Of a DNA stretch of 64,000 bases, positions 38,177 through 42,665 are shown piece by piece. Below the pieces are notes generated by a model. That model did no database searches and was not told the origin of the DNA. It saw only the letters and a program-made list of their open reading frames with translations. Position 1 is the stretch's first letter. The number at the start of each line of letters is the position of its first letter. Source of the DNA: Haloglomus halophilum (GTDB lineage: Archaea; Halobacteriota; Halobacteria; Halobacteriales; Haloarculaceae); contig NZ_CP101166.1 of the NCBI RefSeq assembly GCF_024298885.1, forward strand, positions 2,541,149-2,605,148. The letters run 5' to 3'. The position numbers and the translations under genes are program-made.

Positions 38177-38497
38177 ATGGCAACCGACACGGTCGACCGT
38201 CGGACCGCGCACCTGCGCGGCGTGACGGTGACGACACTCGCGGCCCTCGCGGGCATCGCGGCCGCGCTGGTGTCGACCACCATCGCGACGGGCGCGACCG
38301 ACCGGAGCGCGCTGTTCGTGCTCGTCGGCTTCACGTTCGCCCAGTTCGCCGTCCTGCAGGGCATCGACACCGTCGGCCTCCTCCAGCTCGATGTGGACGA
38401 GTTCGGGGCCAAGGACGTTCTCTACGTCGTCTTCATGACGTTCGCGTTCTGGTTCGTCAGCTGGGGTGTCCTGCTCACCTCGGGGGCGTCGCTGTAA
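38177..38497 (+). CDS. EMC6-like membrane protein (106 aa)
   Basis: A three-helix membrane protein (about residues 16-36, 46-64, 79-102) starting MATDTVDRRTAHLRGVTVTT. Its layout resembles a haloarchaeal EMC6-like protein found next to ABCE1; the assignment is from memory and pattern. The last two codons overlap the ABCE1 start by one base (TAATG), so translation is coupled. EMC-type proteins act in membrane protein insertion. Confidence 0.62.
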   Translation: MATDTVDRRTAHLRGVTVTTLAALAGIAAALVSTTIATGATDRSALFVLVGFTFAQFAVLQGIDTVGLLQLDVDEFGAKDVLYVVFMTFAFWFVSWGVLLTSGASL

Positions 38498-40350
38498 TGG
38501 CCGAGGACAGTATCGCGGTCGTGGACCTGGACCGGTGCCAGCCCGACCGCTGCAACTACGAGTGCGCCAACTACTGCCCGCCCAACCGCACCGGAAAGGA
38601 GTGTATCGTCACGCGCGAGGAGCGCCACGGTGACGAGCCGTACGAGGGCGGGGCCGACCAGATATCCATCTCCGAGGAGATCTGCCTGGGCGAGTCGTGT
38701 GGCATCTGTGTGAACAAGTGCCCGTTCGACGCCATCGAGATCATCAACCTCCCGGGTGAGCTCGAGGAGTCCCCGGCCCACCGCTACGGGGAGAACGCGT
38801 TCGGGCTGTACGGCCTGCCGGCCCCACAGGAGGGCCGCGTGACGGGCGTGCTCGGCCCGAACGGCATCGGGAAGTCGACGGCGGTCCGCATCCTCGCGGG
38901 CGAGATCACCCCCAACCTCGGCCACCACGAGGACGAGCCATCGTGGGAGGCCGTGCTCGACGAGTACCGCGGGACCGCGCTGCAGGACTATCTGGAGGAT
39001 CTCCGGGACGGGAAGCTCGACGTGGCACGCAAGCCCCAGTACGTCGACCGTATCCCCGACCAGTTCGACGGGAAGACCTCGGAACTGCTGGACGGCGTCG
39101 ACGAGCGCGGCGTCGCCGACGAGATAACGGAGCGTCTGGGCATCGCGGGCGTCGTCGACCAGGACATCGACACGCTCTCGGGCGGCGAACTCCAGCGCGT
39201 CGCGCTCGCGGCCGCGCTGGTCCGCGACGCGGACTTCTACTTCATCGACGAGATCACGCCGTATCTGGACATCGGCCAGCGCGTGACCGCCGCGCGGCTC
39301 ATCCGGGAACTGGCCGAAGAGGAGGACCGCTCGATGATGGTCATCGAGCACGACCTCGCCATCCTCGACCTCGTCGCGGACACGGTCCACGTCACCTACG
39401 GTGAGCCGGGGGCGTTCGGTGTCGTCACGACGCCCAAATCGACGCGCAACGGCATCAACGAGTACCTCGATGGCTACCTCGAAGCGGAGAACATGCGCAT
39501 CCGGCAGTCGCCCATCCGCTTCGAGGAGCACGCGCCACGGCAGAGTGCCCGCGGCGATGTCCTCATCGAGTATCCCGAACTCACCAAGTCCTACGGCGAG
39601 GGCGAGTTCACGCTCGAGGTCGAACCCGGTGAGATCCACAGCAACGAGGTGCTGGGCATCGTCGGCCCGAACGGTATCGGGAAGTCGACGTTCGCCGAAC
39701 TGCTGACCGGCCGCCTGGAGGCGACGGAGGGTGAGGTGGACACGCGGCTCGACATCGCGTACAAGCCCCAGTACATCGAGATCGACCAGCCGATGCGGGT
39801 CGACTCGTTCCTCGCGTCCATCACGGACGACTTCGGCTCCTCGTACTGGAACACGGAGATCGCCCAGCCCCTGCAACTGGAGCGCATCATGGAGCAGCAG
39901 CTCACCGACCTCTCGGGCGGCGAGCGCCAGCGCGTCGCCATCGCGGCCTGCCTCTCGAAGGACGCCGACCTCTACCTGCTGGACGAGCCCTCCGCCTTCC
40001 TCGACGTGGAACAGCGGGTGCAGGCCACCAGCGCCATCCGGCGCTACACCGAGAACCACGACGCCACGGCGATGGTGATCGACCACGACATCTACATGAT
40101 CGACCTGCTGGCCGACCGCCTGCAGGTGTTCGACGGCGAGCCGGCCGAACACGGCCACGCCGGCGAACCGGTCGGGATGCGCGAGGGCATGAACCAGTTC
40201 CTCGCCAACCTCGACGTGACCTTCCGTCGCGACCAGAACACGGGTCGCCCGCGCATCAACAAGCCCGGCTCGCAACTCGACCGCAAGCAGAAGAAGCAGG
40301 GCGAGTACTACTACGCGCCGGAGGATGCCGAGGAGCTGGACGAGGAGTAG
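38497..40350 (+). CDS. rli1: ABCE1/Rli1 ribosome-recycling ATPase
   Basis: Splits ribosomes after termination and helps re-initiation, with two nucleotide-binding domains and an N-terminal ferredoxin-like Fe-S domain. Cys-rich CQPDRCNYECANYCPPNR and CGICVNKCPFDAIEI ligate two [4Fe-4S] clusters. NBD1 Walker A GPNGIGKST at 120-128, signature LSGGELQRV; NBD2 Walker A GPNGIGKST again, signature LSGGERQRV, Walker B LYLLDEPSAFLD. The 617-residue length is normal. It is essential in archaea and eukaryotes. Start overlaps the EMC6-like stop by one base. Confidence 0.97.
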   Translation: MAEDSIAVVDLDRCQPDRCNYECANYCPPNRTGKECIVTREERHGDEPYEGGADQISISEEICLGESCGICVNKCPFDAIEIINLPGELEESPAHRYGENAFGLYGLPAPQEGRVTGVLGPNGIGKSTAVRILAGEITPNLGHHEDEPSWEAVLDEYRGTALQDYLEDLRDGKLDVARKPQYVDRIPDQFDGKTSELLDGVDERGVADEITERLGIAGVVDQDIDTLSGGELQRVALAAALVRDADFYFIDEITPYLDIGQRVTAARLIRELAEEEDRSMMVIEHDLAILDLVADTVHVTYGEPGAFGVVTTPKSTRNGINEYLDGYLEAENMRIRQSPIRFEEHAPRQSARGDVLIEYPELTKSYGEGEFTLEVEPGEIHSNEVLGIVGPNGIGKSTFAELLTGRLEATEGEVDTRLDIAYKPQYIEIDQPMRVDSFLASITDDFGSSYWNTEIAQPLQLERIMEQQLTDLSGGERQRVAIAACLSKDADLYLLDEPSAFLDVEQRVQATSAIRRYTENHDATAMVIDHDIYMIDLLADRLQVFDGEPAEHGHAGEPVGMREGMNQFLANLDVTFRRDQNTGRPRINKPGSQLDRKQKKQGEYYYAPEDAEELDEE

Positions 40351-40373: not shown

Positions 40374-41522
40374 TCAGCCGTCGAGTCGCATCCCACACTC
40401 TGGACAGAACGGCGGGCCGCTCGACACCGTGACCTCGGAGCCACACGACGGGCACTCGTCGCTGCCGGCCTCCCCGGACGGGTCGGCATCGCCGGTCGAG
40501 CCAGCATCCGCGGACGGCTCCGCTCCGGTCGCCGTCACCGCGTACAGGTTCCCGTCCCGGCTCGCGATGTAGACGGTCCCATCGGCTACCGTCGGGTTGG
40601 AGAACACCCTGTCCCCGGTCTCGAATCGCCACCGTTCGGTGCCGCTGTCGGCGCCGAGCGCGTACAGGTTCCCGTCCCGACTCCCCACGTAGACGGTCTC
40701 CCCGGTCACGGTTGGGGTCGAGGCGACCGTGTCGTCCGCCTCGTATCGCCAGCGACGGGTCCCATCGCCCCGGTTCACTGCGAACAGGGCCCCGCTGCTC
40801 GAGTATCCGCTGGTTCGACCGACGTAGACCGTGTCCTCGGTCACCTGTGGTCGGCTGATGATCTGATTCCCGGTTTCGAACTCCCAGTCCCCGGTCCCGG
40901 TGGCGGCATCCACCGCGTACAGGTACCCGTCCTCGGTCCCGACGTAGATGGTTCCCTCGACGACGGCGGGGGGCCCGACATCGCCTCCCGCCCGGAAGCG
41001 CCATCGCTCCGCGCCGGTCTCGGCATCCACGGCGTAGAGCCGTCCGTCCCAGCTGCCGAAGTAGACTGTCTCGCCTGCTACCGCTGGTGAGGGGAACTTT
41101 CCGTCCGTCCCGTACTGCCATCGCGTCTCCCCGCTCCGCCGGTCGACCGCGTACAGGTTTCCGTCGCTGCTCCCCACGTAGACGAGTTCCCGACCCACCG
41201 CCGGGGAGAACCCCGGCCACTCCCCGACGTGGATGCGCCACCGCTCCGTCCCCTCGGACGCGTCCACCGCGTACAGGTATCCGTCGTTGCTGGTGACGTA
41301 GACGGTGTCGCCGCGGACCGTCGGTGACGGACGCATCGACCTGTCGGCCCCGAACCGCCAGCGCTCGGTCCCGGTCCGTCTGTCGACCGCGTACAGCCGG
41401 TCGCTCGCGAGATAGATGGTGTCTCCCGCCAGTACCGGGGACGAATCGGGTGACCCGCTCGTCCGGAACCGCCACTGCTCCATCCCGCCCTCTTCCGGGG
41501 CGCCCCCTCCTGACTCGCTCAT
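40374..41522 (-). CDS. PQQ-type beta-propeller with C-terminal zinc ribbon (382 aa)
   Basis: Eight repeats with a [23 protein letters not shown] consensus (for example [52 protein letters not shown]) form an eight-blade PQQ-like propeller. After a short acidic linker, [20 protein letters not shown] is a zinc ribbon. No signal peptide, Tat motif or membrane helix is visible, so the protein should be cytoplasmic, unlike most PQQ-propeller proteins. The function is unknown. It converges on ABCE1. Confidence 0.85.
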
Positions 41523-41639: not shown

Positions 41640-42665
41640 ATGATACAGGTCGCGGTCAACGGCTACGGGACCATCGGCAAGCGCGTCGCGGACGCCGTCA
41701 CGCTCCAGCCCGACATGGAGCTGGTGGGCGTGGCGAAGACCAGCCCCAACCACGAGGCCGAACTCGCCGTCGAGAACGGCTATCCGCTGTACGCGGCGGT
41801 CGAGGACCGCATCGAGCTGTTCGACGAGGCCGGCATCGAACTCGCGGGCACGGTCGACGAACTCGTCGAGGCCGCGGACGTCGTCGTCGACGCCTGCCCG
41901 TCGGGTATCGGCGCCGACAACAAGTCGATGTACGAGGAACTCGACACGCCCGCGCTCTACCAGGGCGGGGAGTCGGCCGACCTCGTGGACACGTCGTTCA
42001 ACGCCCGCGCGAACTACAGCGACGCCGAGGGCGCCGACCACGTCCGCGTCGTCTCCTGCAACACGACCGGCCTCTCCCGGCTGCTCGCGCCGCTCGAAGC
42101 GGAGTACGGCGTCGAGAAGGCCCGTGTCACGCTCGTCCGGCGCGGCGGTGACCCCGGGCAGACCGGCCGCGGCCCCATCAACGACATCCTCCCGAACCCG
42201 GTGACGCTCCCGAGCCACCACGGTCCGGACGTGAACACCATCTTCCCCGATCTTTCTATCGACACGCTGGGGCTGAAGGTGCCGGCGACGCTGATGCACA
42301 CCCACTCCGTGAACGTCCAGCTGGAGCCCGACGCTGCCGACATGCCCAGCGCCGACGAGGTTCGCGAGCTGCTGGCCGGCGAGGAGCGGACGTTCATGGT
42401 CCAGCCGAGCCACGACATCGACGGCGCGGGCAAGCTCAAGGAGTACGCGCTGGACCGCGGCCGGCCGCGGGGGGACCTCTGGGAGAACTGCATCTGGAGC
42501 GAGTCCATCAGCGTCGAGGACGACGACCTCTACCTGTTCCAGGCCATCCACCAGGAGTCCGACGTGGTGCCCGAGAACGTCGACGCAATCCGCGCGGTGC
42601 TGGGTACGGCCGACGCCGCCGAATCCCGCGAGCGGACGAACGAGACGATGGGCGTCGGGCTGTAG
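41640..42665 (+). CDS. gap: Glyceraldehyde-3-phosphate dehydrogenase, archaeal type II
   Basis: Interconverts glyceraldehyde-3-phosphate and 1,3-bisphosphoglycerate with NAD(P); main role gluconeogenic or lower glycolytic. 341 aa, [20 protein letters not shown] (Rossmann GxGxxG), catalytic Cys 140 in [11 protein letters not shown], and [11 protein letters not shown] late in the sequence. It belongs to the archaeal class distinct from the bacterial enzyme. The ATG at 41640 is the natural start; upstream in-frame residues are not family-like. It stands alone and is transcribed divergently from the propeller gene. Confidence 0.95.

Follow-up and report, generated by a model that had tools for sequence, protein, structure and literature searches.

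Several described systems contain PQQ-like propellers that can be compared with P0001, a protein encoded in the genome of Haloglomus halophilum. BamB belongs to the outer-membrane machinery and is an exported lipoprotein. It shares PQQ-like blades (PQQ_2, PF13360) with P0001, and the Foldseek list for P0001 has BamB entries as its nearest natural structures, after designed propellers. However, P0001 has no signal, falls below the cut-off of the BamB model TIGR03300 in NCBIfam (188.2 against 285.2 bits) and has a ribbon. A PQQ-like propeller is also present in Beta-prop_ACSF4 (PF13570), and P0001 scores above the curated cut-off of this family (186.7 vs 133). In the beta-alanine-activating enzyme, a large adenylating enzyme that is cytosolic in eukaryotes, the propeller is one part of the protein, whereas in P0001 it stands alone with a ribbon. 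Similar propellers occur in AfsK-type kinases (P0001 scores 166.5 bits on the AfsK model, which has a cut-off of 1300) and in haloarchaeal propeller-kinase fusions (locus L025; Halomicrobium WP_153554981.1). Unlike these proteins, P0001 has no kinase domain, and no kinase above cut-off was found in its genome.

PQQ propellers are described as protein binders in PMC9218822. For haloarchaeal ESCRT loci, it has been proposed that PQQ-like domains bind cargo, although those proteins differ from P0001 in having a propeller plus Ig-like domains (PMC10936438).

The combination of PQQ_2 blades with a C-terminal CxxC-CxxC ribbon is found in propellers from nine other genomes (G048, G082, G284, G373, G170, G253, G188, G205 and G377). 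Where these were read, no evident signal was seen by eye, as for P0001. Some of them differ from P0001 in lying beside kinase, PP2C, vWA or FHA genes and in having T-x-[VI]-[YF] tails, others in having double or triple ribbons, and short forms of about four blades exist in G082, G205 and G284. Searches of the open-access literature and scans with Pfam, NCBIfam and PADLOC gave no named family and no paper on proteins that join a propeller to a ribbon, and the accessible part of PMC9239133 held nothing relevant. The parts of P0001 are of known kinds, and the pairing of blades and ribbon is a recurrent variant.

Architecture and conservation of P0001

The window, which is the whole stretch of 64,000 nucleotides that was analysed, encodes P0001 on its minus strand. 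Translation places the ATG at 41522-41520 and the stop at 40374-40376, in agreement with the coordinates, strand and frame first claimed. The features of P0001 and its neighbours are as follows.

38497..40350, plus strand: RLI/ABCE1 ATPase, convergent neighbour outside the feature (NF009945, 938.5 bits)
40374..41522, minus strand: P0001, a 382-aa PQQ-like propeller with a C-terminal zinc-ribbon-type tail and without an export signal (translation, Pfam, NCBIfam)
40377..40457, minus strand: ribbon CPSC-x12-CPEC, residues 356-382 (Zn_ribbon_3; 96% identity to the orthologue)
40458..40529, minus strand: disordered linker, residues about 332-355 (pLDDT < 50 over 334-353; 75% identity to the orthologue)
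40530..41483, minus strand: eight-repeat propeller, residues about 14-331 (repeat count, AlphaFold2, Foldseek)
40641..40895, minus strand: blades 6-7, residues about 210-294, which differ most from the orthologue (aligned codons 209-293 contain 62 of the 140 nucleotide differences)
41640..42665, plus strand: archaeal type II GAPDH, divergent neighbour outside the feature (NF003251, 491 bits)

P0001 starts with a short polar stretch that is followed by eight PQQ-like repeats, which can be counted by eye and have pairwise identities of 35-57%. The Pfam match to PQQ_2 (PF13360) is far beyond chance (6.4e-57, 193.3 bits, cut-off 27.6). The AlphaFold2 model, made from an alignment of seven sequences, has a mean pLDDT of 86.3 and a pTM of 0.80, with blade strands throughout the propeller and pLDDT values of 83-98 per 10-residue block in this region. 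Foldseek ranked designed propellers (Cake, Bagel) and BamB first, with a TMq of 0.78 to designed Cake8, and a sequence comparison with the PDB placed designed propellers on top and BamB further down. By both its blades and its fold P0001 is a member of the PQQ_2 / PQQ-like beta-propeller superfamily, and the eight blades counted in the first-pass annotation are borne out by the PQQ_2 match, the repeats and the model.

A linker of about 24 residues lies between the propeller and the ribbon. The only four cysteines of P0001 are those of the ribbon, C357-P-S-C360-x12-C373-P-E-C376, and all four are conserved in the orthologue from the sister genome G048. The C-terminal CPSC/CPEC cysteines reported at the outset are confirmed. 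The Pfam match of the ribbon to Zn_ribbon_3 has an E value of 6.5e-6 and, at 25.9 bits, lies just below the cut-off of 27. In the AlphaFold2 model, confidence in the ribbon is no more than moderate (58-74 per pLDDT block). The ribbon is predicted to bind zinc.

Hydropathy averaged over 17 residues peaks at 0.81 in the whole protein and at 0.34 in the first 45 residues. The 40 codons upstream of the start, read by eye, contain no hydrophobic stretch, and no lipobox was seen in the protein. The start codon is common to the G048 orthologue, which has another residue in place of the internal M14 of P0001. A missed signal peptide is ruled out by the hydropathy values and the upstream codons, and these, together with the common start codon, agree with the initial claim that P0001 has no export signal. 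P0001 is probably a cytosolic protein. Its scores against the PQQ-dehydrogenase models of NCBIfam are far from the cut-offs (106.5 against 480 bits for TIGR03075 and 74.4 against 833 bits for TIGR03074). No cut-off for a PQQ enzyme was reached in NCBIfam, and a classical quinoprotein was rejected on this ground, as the first-pass annotation had argued. Judged from its sequence, P0001 probably has no catalytic activity.

P0001 and its orthologue in G048 are 84% identical. The dN/dS ratio between them is 0.35 for the whole gene, 0.32 for the propeller, 0.20 for the ribbon and 0.66 for the linker, values that indicate a gene under purifying selection. Divergence is uneven within the propeller. 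Blades 1-5 and 8 have 87-97% identity to the orthologue, while blade 6 has 71% and blade 7 has 58%. The clustering of differences in codons 209-293 was reached by none of 10,000 codon shuffles, for a segment length that was picked after viewing the data; synonymous changes alone were not significantly clustered in blades 6-7 (1,047 of 10,000 shuffles). A 48-base piece of blade 7 in the G048 orthologue has 90% identity to blade 8 of P0001. Conversion between blades would fit this likeness, which does not prove it.

The flanking ABCE1 and archaeal type II GAPDH equivalogs, a base composition of 66-74% G+C and the many haloarchaea among the named plasmid relatives of the protein mark the host as a haloarchaeon. 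With ABCE1 convergent and GAPDH divergent, no partner, operon or conserved neighbourhood for P0001 was found at the locus. ABCE1 has no adjoining propeller in the congeners G047 and G049, and a link of P0001 to ABCE1 or GAPDH was dropped.

Ribbon-tailed propellers in the host and its relatives

The host genome has 18 open frames with PQQ_2 blades, one of which scores below the PQQ_2 cut-off, and four of the 18 (P0001 and three paralogues) have a C-terminal ribbon. The N-termini of 14 of these frames could be assigned by eye; eight are twin-arginine-like or lipoprotein and six are signal-less. The six signal-less proteins are P0001, its three ribbon-tailed paralogues and two propellers without a ribbon, and these last two show that proteins of this kind can do without the ribbon. 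The three ribbon-tailed paralogues (392, 408 and 466 aa) have 39-43% overall identity to P0001. A DNA pattern for the ribbon occurs at 18 sites in the host genome, four of which are propeller tails; the pattern overlooked the G048 counterpart of one paralogue. The motif GTLGHH-x-[RH] follows the last blade in two of the host paralogues (L080:8540-9766 and L082:8870-10270) and in a relative (L043). The two paralogue sites are its only occurrences in the host genome, and the motif gave no lead.

Sister genome G048 contains five ribbon-tailed propellers. Three are counterparts of host proteins, with 84% identity for P0001, 90% for the 408-aa paralogue and 88% for the 466-aa paralogue. The remaining two have a double ribbon (L275, 208500-214000) and a triple ribbon (L276, G048:C1:1555500-1560500), which suggests tandem growth of the ribbon tail. 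The four that accompany the P0001 orthologue all score above the PQQ_2 cut-off. For the 392-aa paralogue no close counterpart was found among the G048 frames compared (best 44%). The P0001 orthologue was not found in the other two congeners, where the best match has 44% identity in G047 and an E value of 3.7e-27 in G049, a genome that is 81% complete.

More distant genomes were also searched. Full-length matches to a profile of the last blade plus ribbon were found in at least nine of 391 genomes of the class, including the host and G082. The true number may be higher, since a long linker defeats the profile, which misses two ribbon-tailed paralogues of the host itself. At least ten ribbon-tailed propellers are encoded in G082, which is from the same family, and the six that were scanned are all above the PQQ_2 cut-off. 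Short ribbon-tailed proteins occur at L122, L123 and L125 in G082, G205 and G284, with frames of 229-275 aa and about four blades by eye. They may complete a propeller by pairing. The short version adjoins a longer ribbon-tailed propeller in G082 and G284. Among the 30 loci that match P0001 best in its family, of which two (L037 and L039) have frames that end beyond the stretch read, a ribbon is present in three, namely P0001, its orthologue and one G082 locus; L026 and L027, also among the 30, have none. The first-pass annotation called the combination of propeller and ribbon uncommon. This description holds as far as its scattered distribution is concerned (at least nine of 391 genomes), but the combination is not unique, with four cases in the host, five in G048 and at least ten in G082.

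A plasmid search with P0001 returned 300 matching records, all with less than 60% identity, annotated as PQQ-binding-like propellers, kinases and others. Many of the named plasmid relatives are from haloarchaea. A scan of genome contigs gave one relative, with a twin-arginine-like N-terminus. P0001 and its three ribbon-tailed paralogues matched no family in the PADLOC defence models, and a role in anti-phage defence was dropped.

Signalling genes near ribbon-tailed propellers

Kinase, phosphatase, vWA and FHA genes lie near ribbon-tailed propellers, within about 10 kb, in three of the nine genomes in which the profile found such propellers (G082, G284 and G373). The richest region is a stretch of about 50 kb in G082.

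G082:C1:2381000-2430000 (L117, L118, L073): ribbon-rich stretch with eight ribbon-tailed propellers amid signalling genes (Pfam)

According to Pfam this stretch also encodes two kinases, a PP2C, a vWA protein, three further FHA proteins and a pentapeptide-ribbon protein. One of the kinases has an FHA domain above cut-off and that of the other is just under it. A DnaJ-like protein likewise falls slightly short of its cut-off, while HEAT-like and cold-shock-like proteins were recognised by eye. Many tails in the stretch have the motif T-x-[VI]-[YF], often with a D after it. This tail presumably resembles the phospho-threonine tail of GarA/OdhI. The motif, often followed by D-P, was seen in propellers and other proteins at L073, L117, L118, L122, L123, L125 and L139. 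One DNA form of it occurs 13 times in G082 vs 2 reversed-control sites, and eight of the 13 fall inside 93 kb. The same form has 3-6 sites vs 0-4 control sites in five other genomes, so G082 does not stand out by its excess alone. PQQ-like propellers fused to Ser/Thr kinases were observed at L191:4051-6951 and L025:235-2271, and one such fusion is located on a Halomicrobium plasmid amid several more kinase genes.

Module genes were not found near ribbon-tailed propellers in the stretches examined of G205, G170, G253, G188 and G377, nor in the window or beside the three ribbon-tailed paralogues of the host. A PP2C_2 search of ten genomes, the nine from the profile plus G048, gave matches in four, and in three of these four the match lies beside a ribbon-tailed propeller. 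The host and G048 have no PP2C_2 match, and each has one sub-threshold kinase match and none above cut-off.

PP2C_2 (PF13672) occurs in 72 of the 391 class genomes. The association was followed in 40 of 79 listed PP2C places, picked regardless of propellers from 39 genomes (one used twice), with the three discovery loci left out and one region of only 8 kb. Twenty offset regions in genomes of the same set served as controls. A kinase is present in 29 of the 40 PP2C regions vs none of the 20 controls, and a vWA match in 22 vs 1. The enrichment of both near PP2C means that the signalling module is real. Propellers of any kind are no commoner near PP2C (six of 40 regions vs three of 20 controls). 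Ribbon-tailed propellers, detected with a profile E value of 1e-12 plus a C-terminal CxxC pattern, so that weak or unusual cases could be missed, are present in none of the 40 regions and none of the 20 controls. The module is real and common, and it seldom accompanies a ribbon-tailed propeller; as a general partner of these proteins it was dropped. Since ribbon-tailed propellers are rare, the comparison cannot show that the three linkages are due to chance. A group of vWA, kinase and PP2C genes is widespread in the class (L198-L237) and in most cases includes a ribbon-FHA gene; the vWA and kinase genes occur together in 22 of the 40 regions.

Possible roles of P0001

There is about an even chance that P0001 is a non-catalytic cytosolic adaptor for protein interactions. 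The propeller face would bind one partner protein, and the zinc-bound ribbon would dock the complex to a second partner or dimerise. The flexible linker would let the propeller and the ribbon work jointly. Across the paralogues the propeller varies and the ribbon is kept, so different partners may be delivered to one common site. This role is consistent with scores below every quinoprotein and BamB cut-off, with BamB, a component of a larger complex, as the closest natural structure, and with the protein binding described for PQQ propellers and the cargo binding proposed in haloarchaeal ESCRT loci. Purifying selection on the gene, its conserved cysteines, the three ribbon-tailed paralogues and the divergence of blades 6-7 also speak for it. 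Against it stand the negative search for a partner, operon or conserved neighbourhood at the locus, the two signal-less propellers without a ribbon and the weak clustering of synonymous changes in blades 6-7. The scaffold role proposed in the first-pass annotation retains its two premises, no export signal and no quinoprotein score, and the scaffold itself is what we infer.

The chief rival to the adaptor is that P0001 is a lineage-specific paralogue whose function is slight or conditional, in which case the pairing would recur without a common role, because PQQ-like propellers multiply easily and ribbons have often been added to proteins of this genome. The scattered distribution of blade-plus-ribbon matches, the negative search for an orthologue in G047 and in G049 (the latter only 81% complete) out of three congeners, and the 18 ribbon-pattern sites of the host, four of them propeller tails, are in keeping with this explanation, as is the amplification of new propellers from single blades described in PMC9218822. 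The dN/dS of the gene and its intact cysteines argue against it, and three of the four ribbon-tailed propellers of the host have close counterparts in G048. On balance this explanation seems unlikely.

The remaining explanations tie P0001 to a particular process. It could be an accessory or substrate of the Ser/Thr-kinase, PP2C, vWA and FHA module, with the propeller as a scaffold and a phosphorylated T-x-[VI]-[YF] tail read by FHA. The three linked genomes, the many tails with this motif near the module and the existence of propeller-kinase fusions (also at L202 and L206) speak for such a role, but no module lies nearby in six of the nine genomes and unselected PP2C regions lack ribbon-tailed propellers. 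The kinase lead does not explain P0001, because PP2C_2 has no match in its host, where no Pkinase scores above cut-off either, and P0001 has no T-x-[VI]-[YF] motif. The absence of the module in the host nearly refutes this role for P0001, and we consider it very unlikely. Zinc ribbons often bind nucleic acid, and P0001 adjoins ABCE1, so it could also be an RNA- or ribosome-linked factor whose ribbon binds nucleic acid. The two genes are convergent, however, ABCE1 lacks a neighbouring propeller in the two congeners, and P0001 is acidic (15% D+E vs 9% K+R), which leaves this alternative a small chance. A cytosolic enzyme or quinoprotein whose propeller channel holds PQQ or some other small ligand is suggested by the PQQ-family fold but is highly improbable given that P0001 reaches no PQQ-enzyme cut-off. 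PqqE above cut-off is also absent from the host, which is weak evidence because none of 14 control genomes has a PqqE above cut-off either.

A broader proposal, which we regard as unlikely, is that ribbon-tailed cytosolic propellers form an archaeal family of exchangeable adaptors. A propeller face that changes fast, through new paralogues and divergence at the level of blades, would serve varied targets and a constant ribbon would serve one shared partner. Some lineages would be wired to Ser/Thr-kinase/FHA signalling through T-x-[VI]-[YF] tails, and the lineage of P0001 would be without the module or have lost it.

The many haloarchaeal PQQ-like propellers, a good number of them with export signals, include a recurrent subset that is signal-less and ribbon-tailed, which points to an intracellular role. 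The clusters with kinases, a phosphatase and phosphopeptide-binding domains are a tractable lead on archaeal phospho-signalling. In the genus of P0001 there are several paralogues for comparison, and the partner of the propeller is a clear target.
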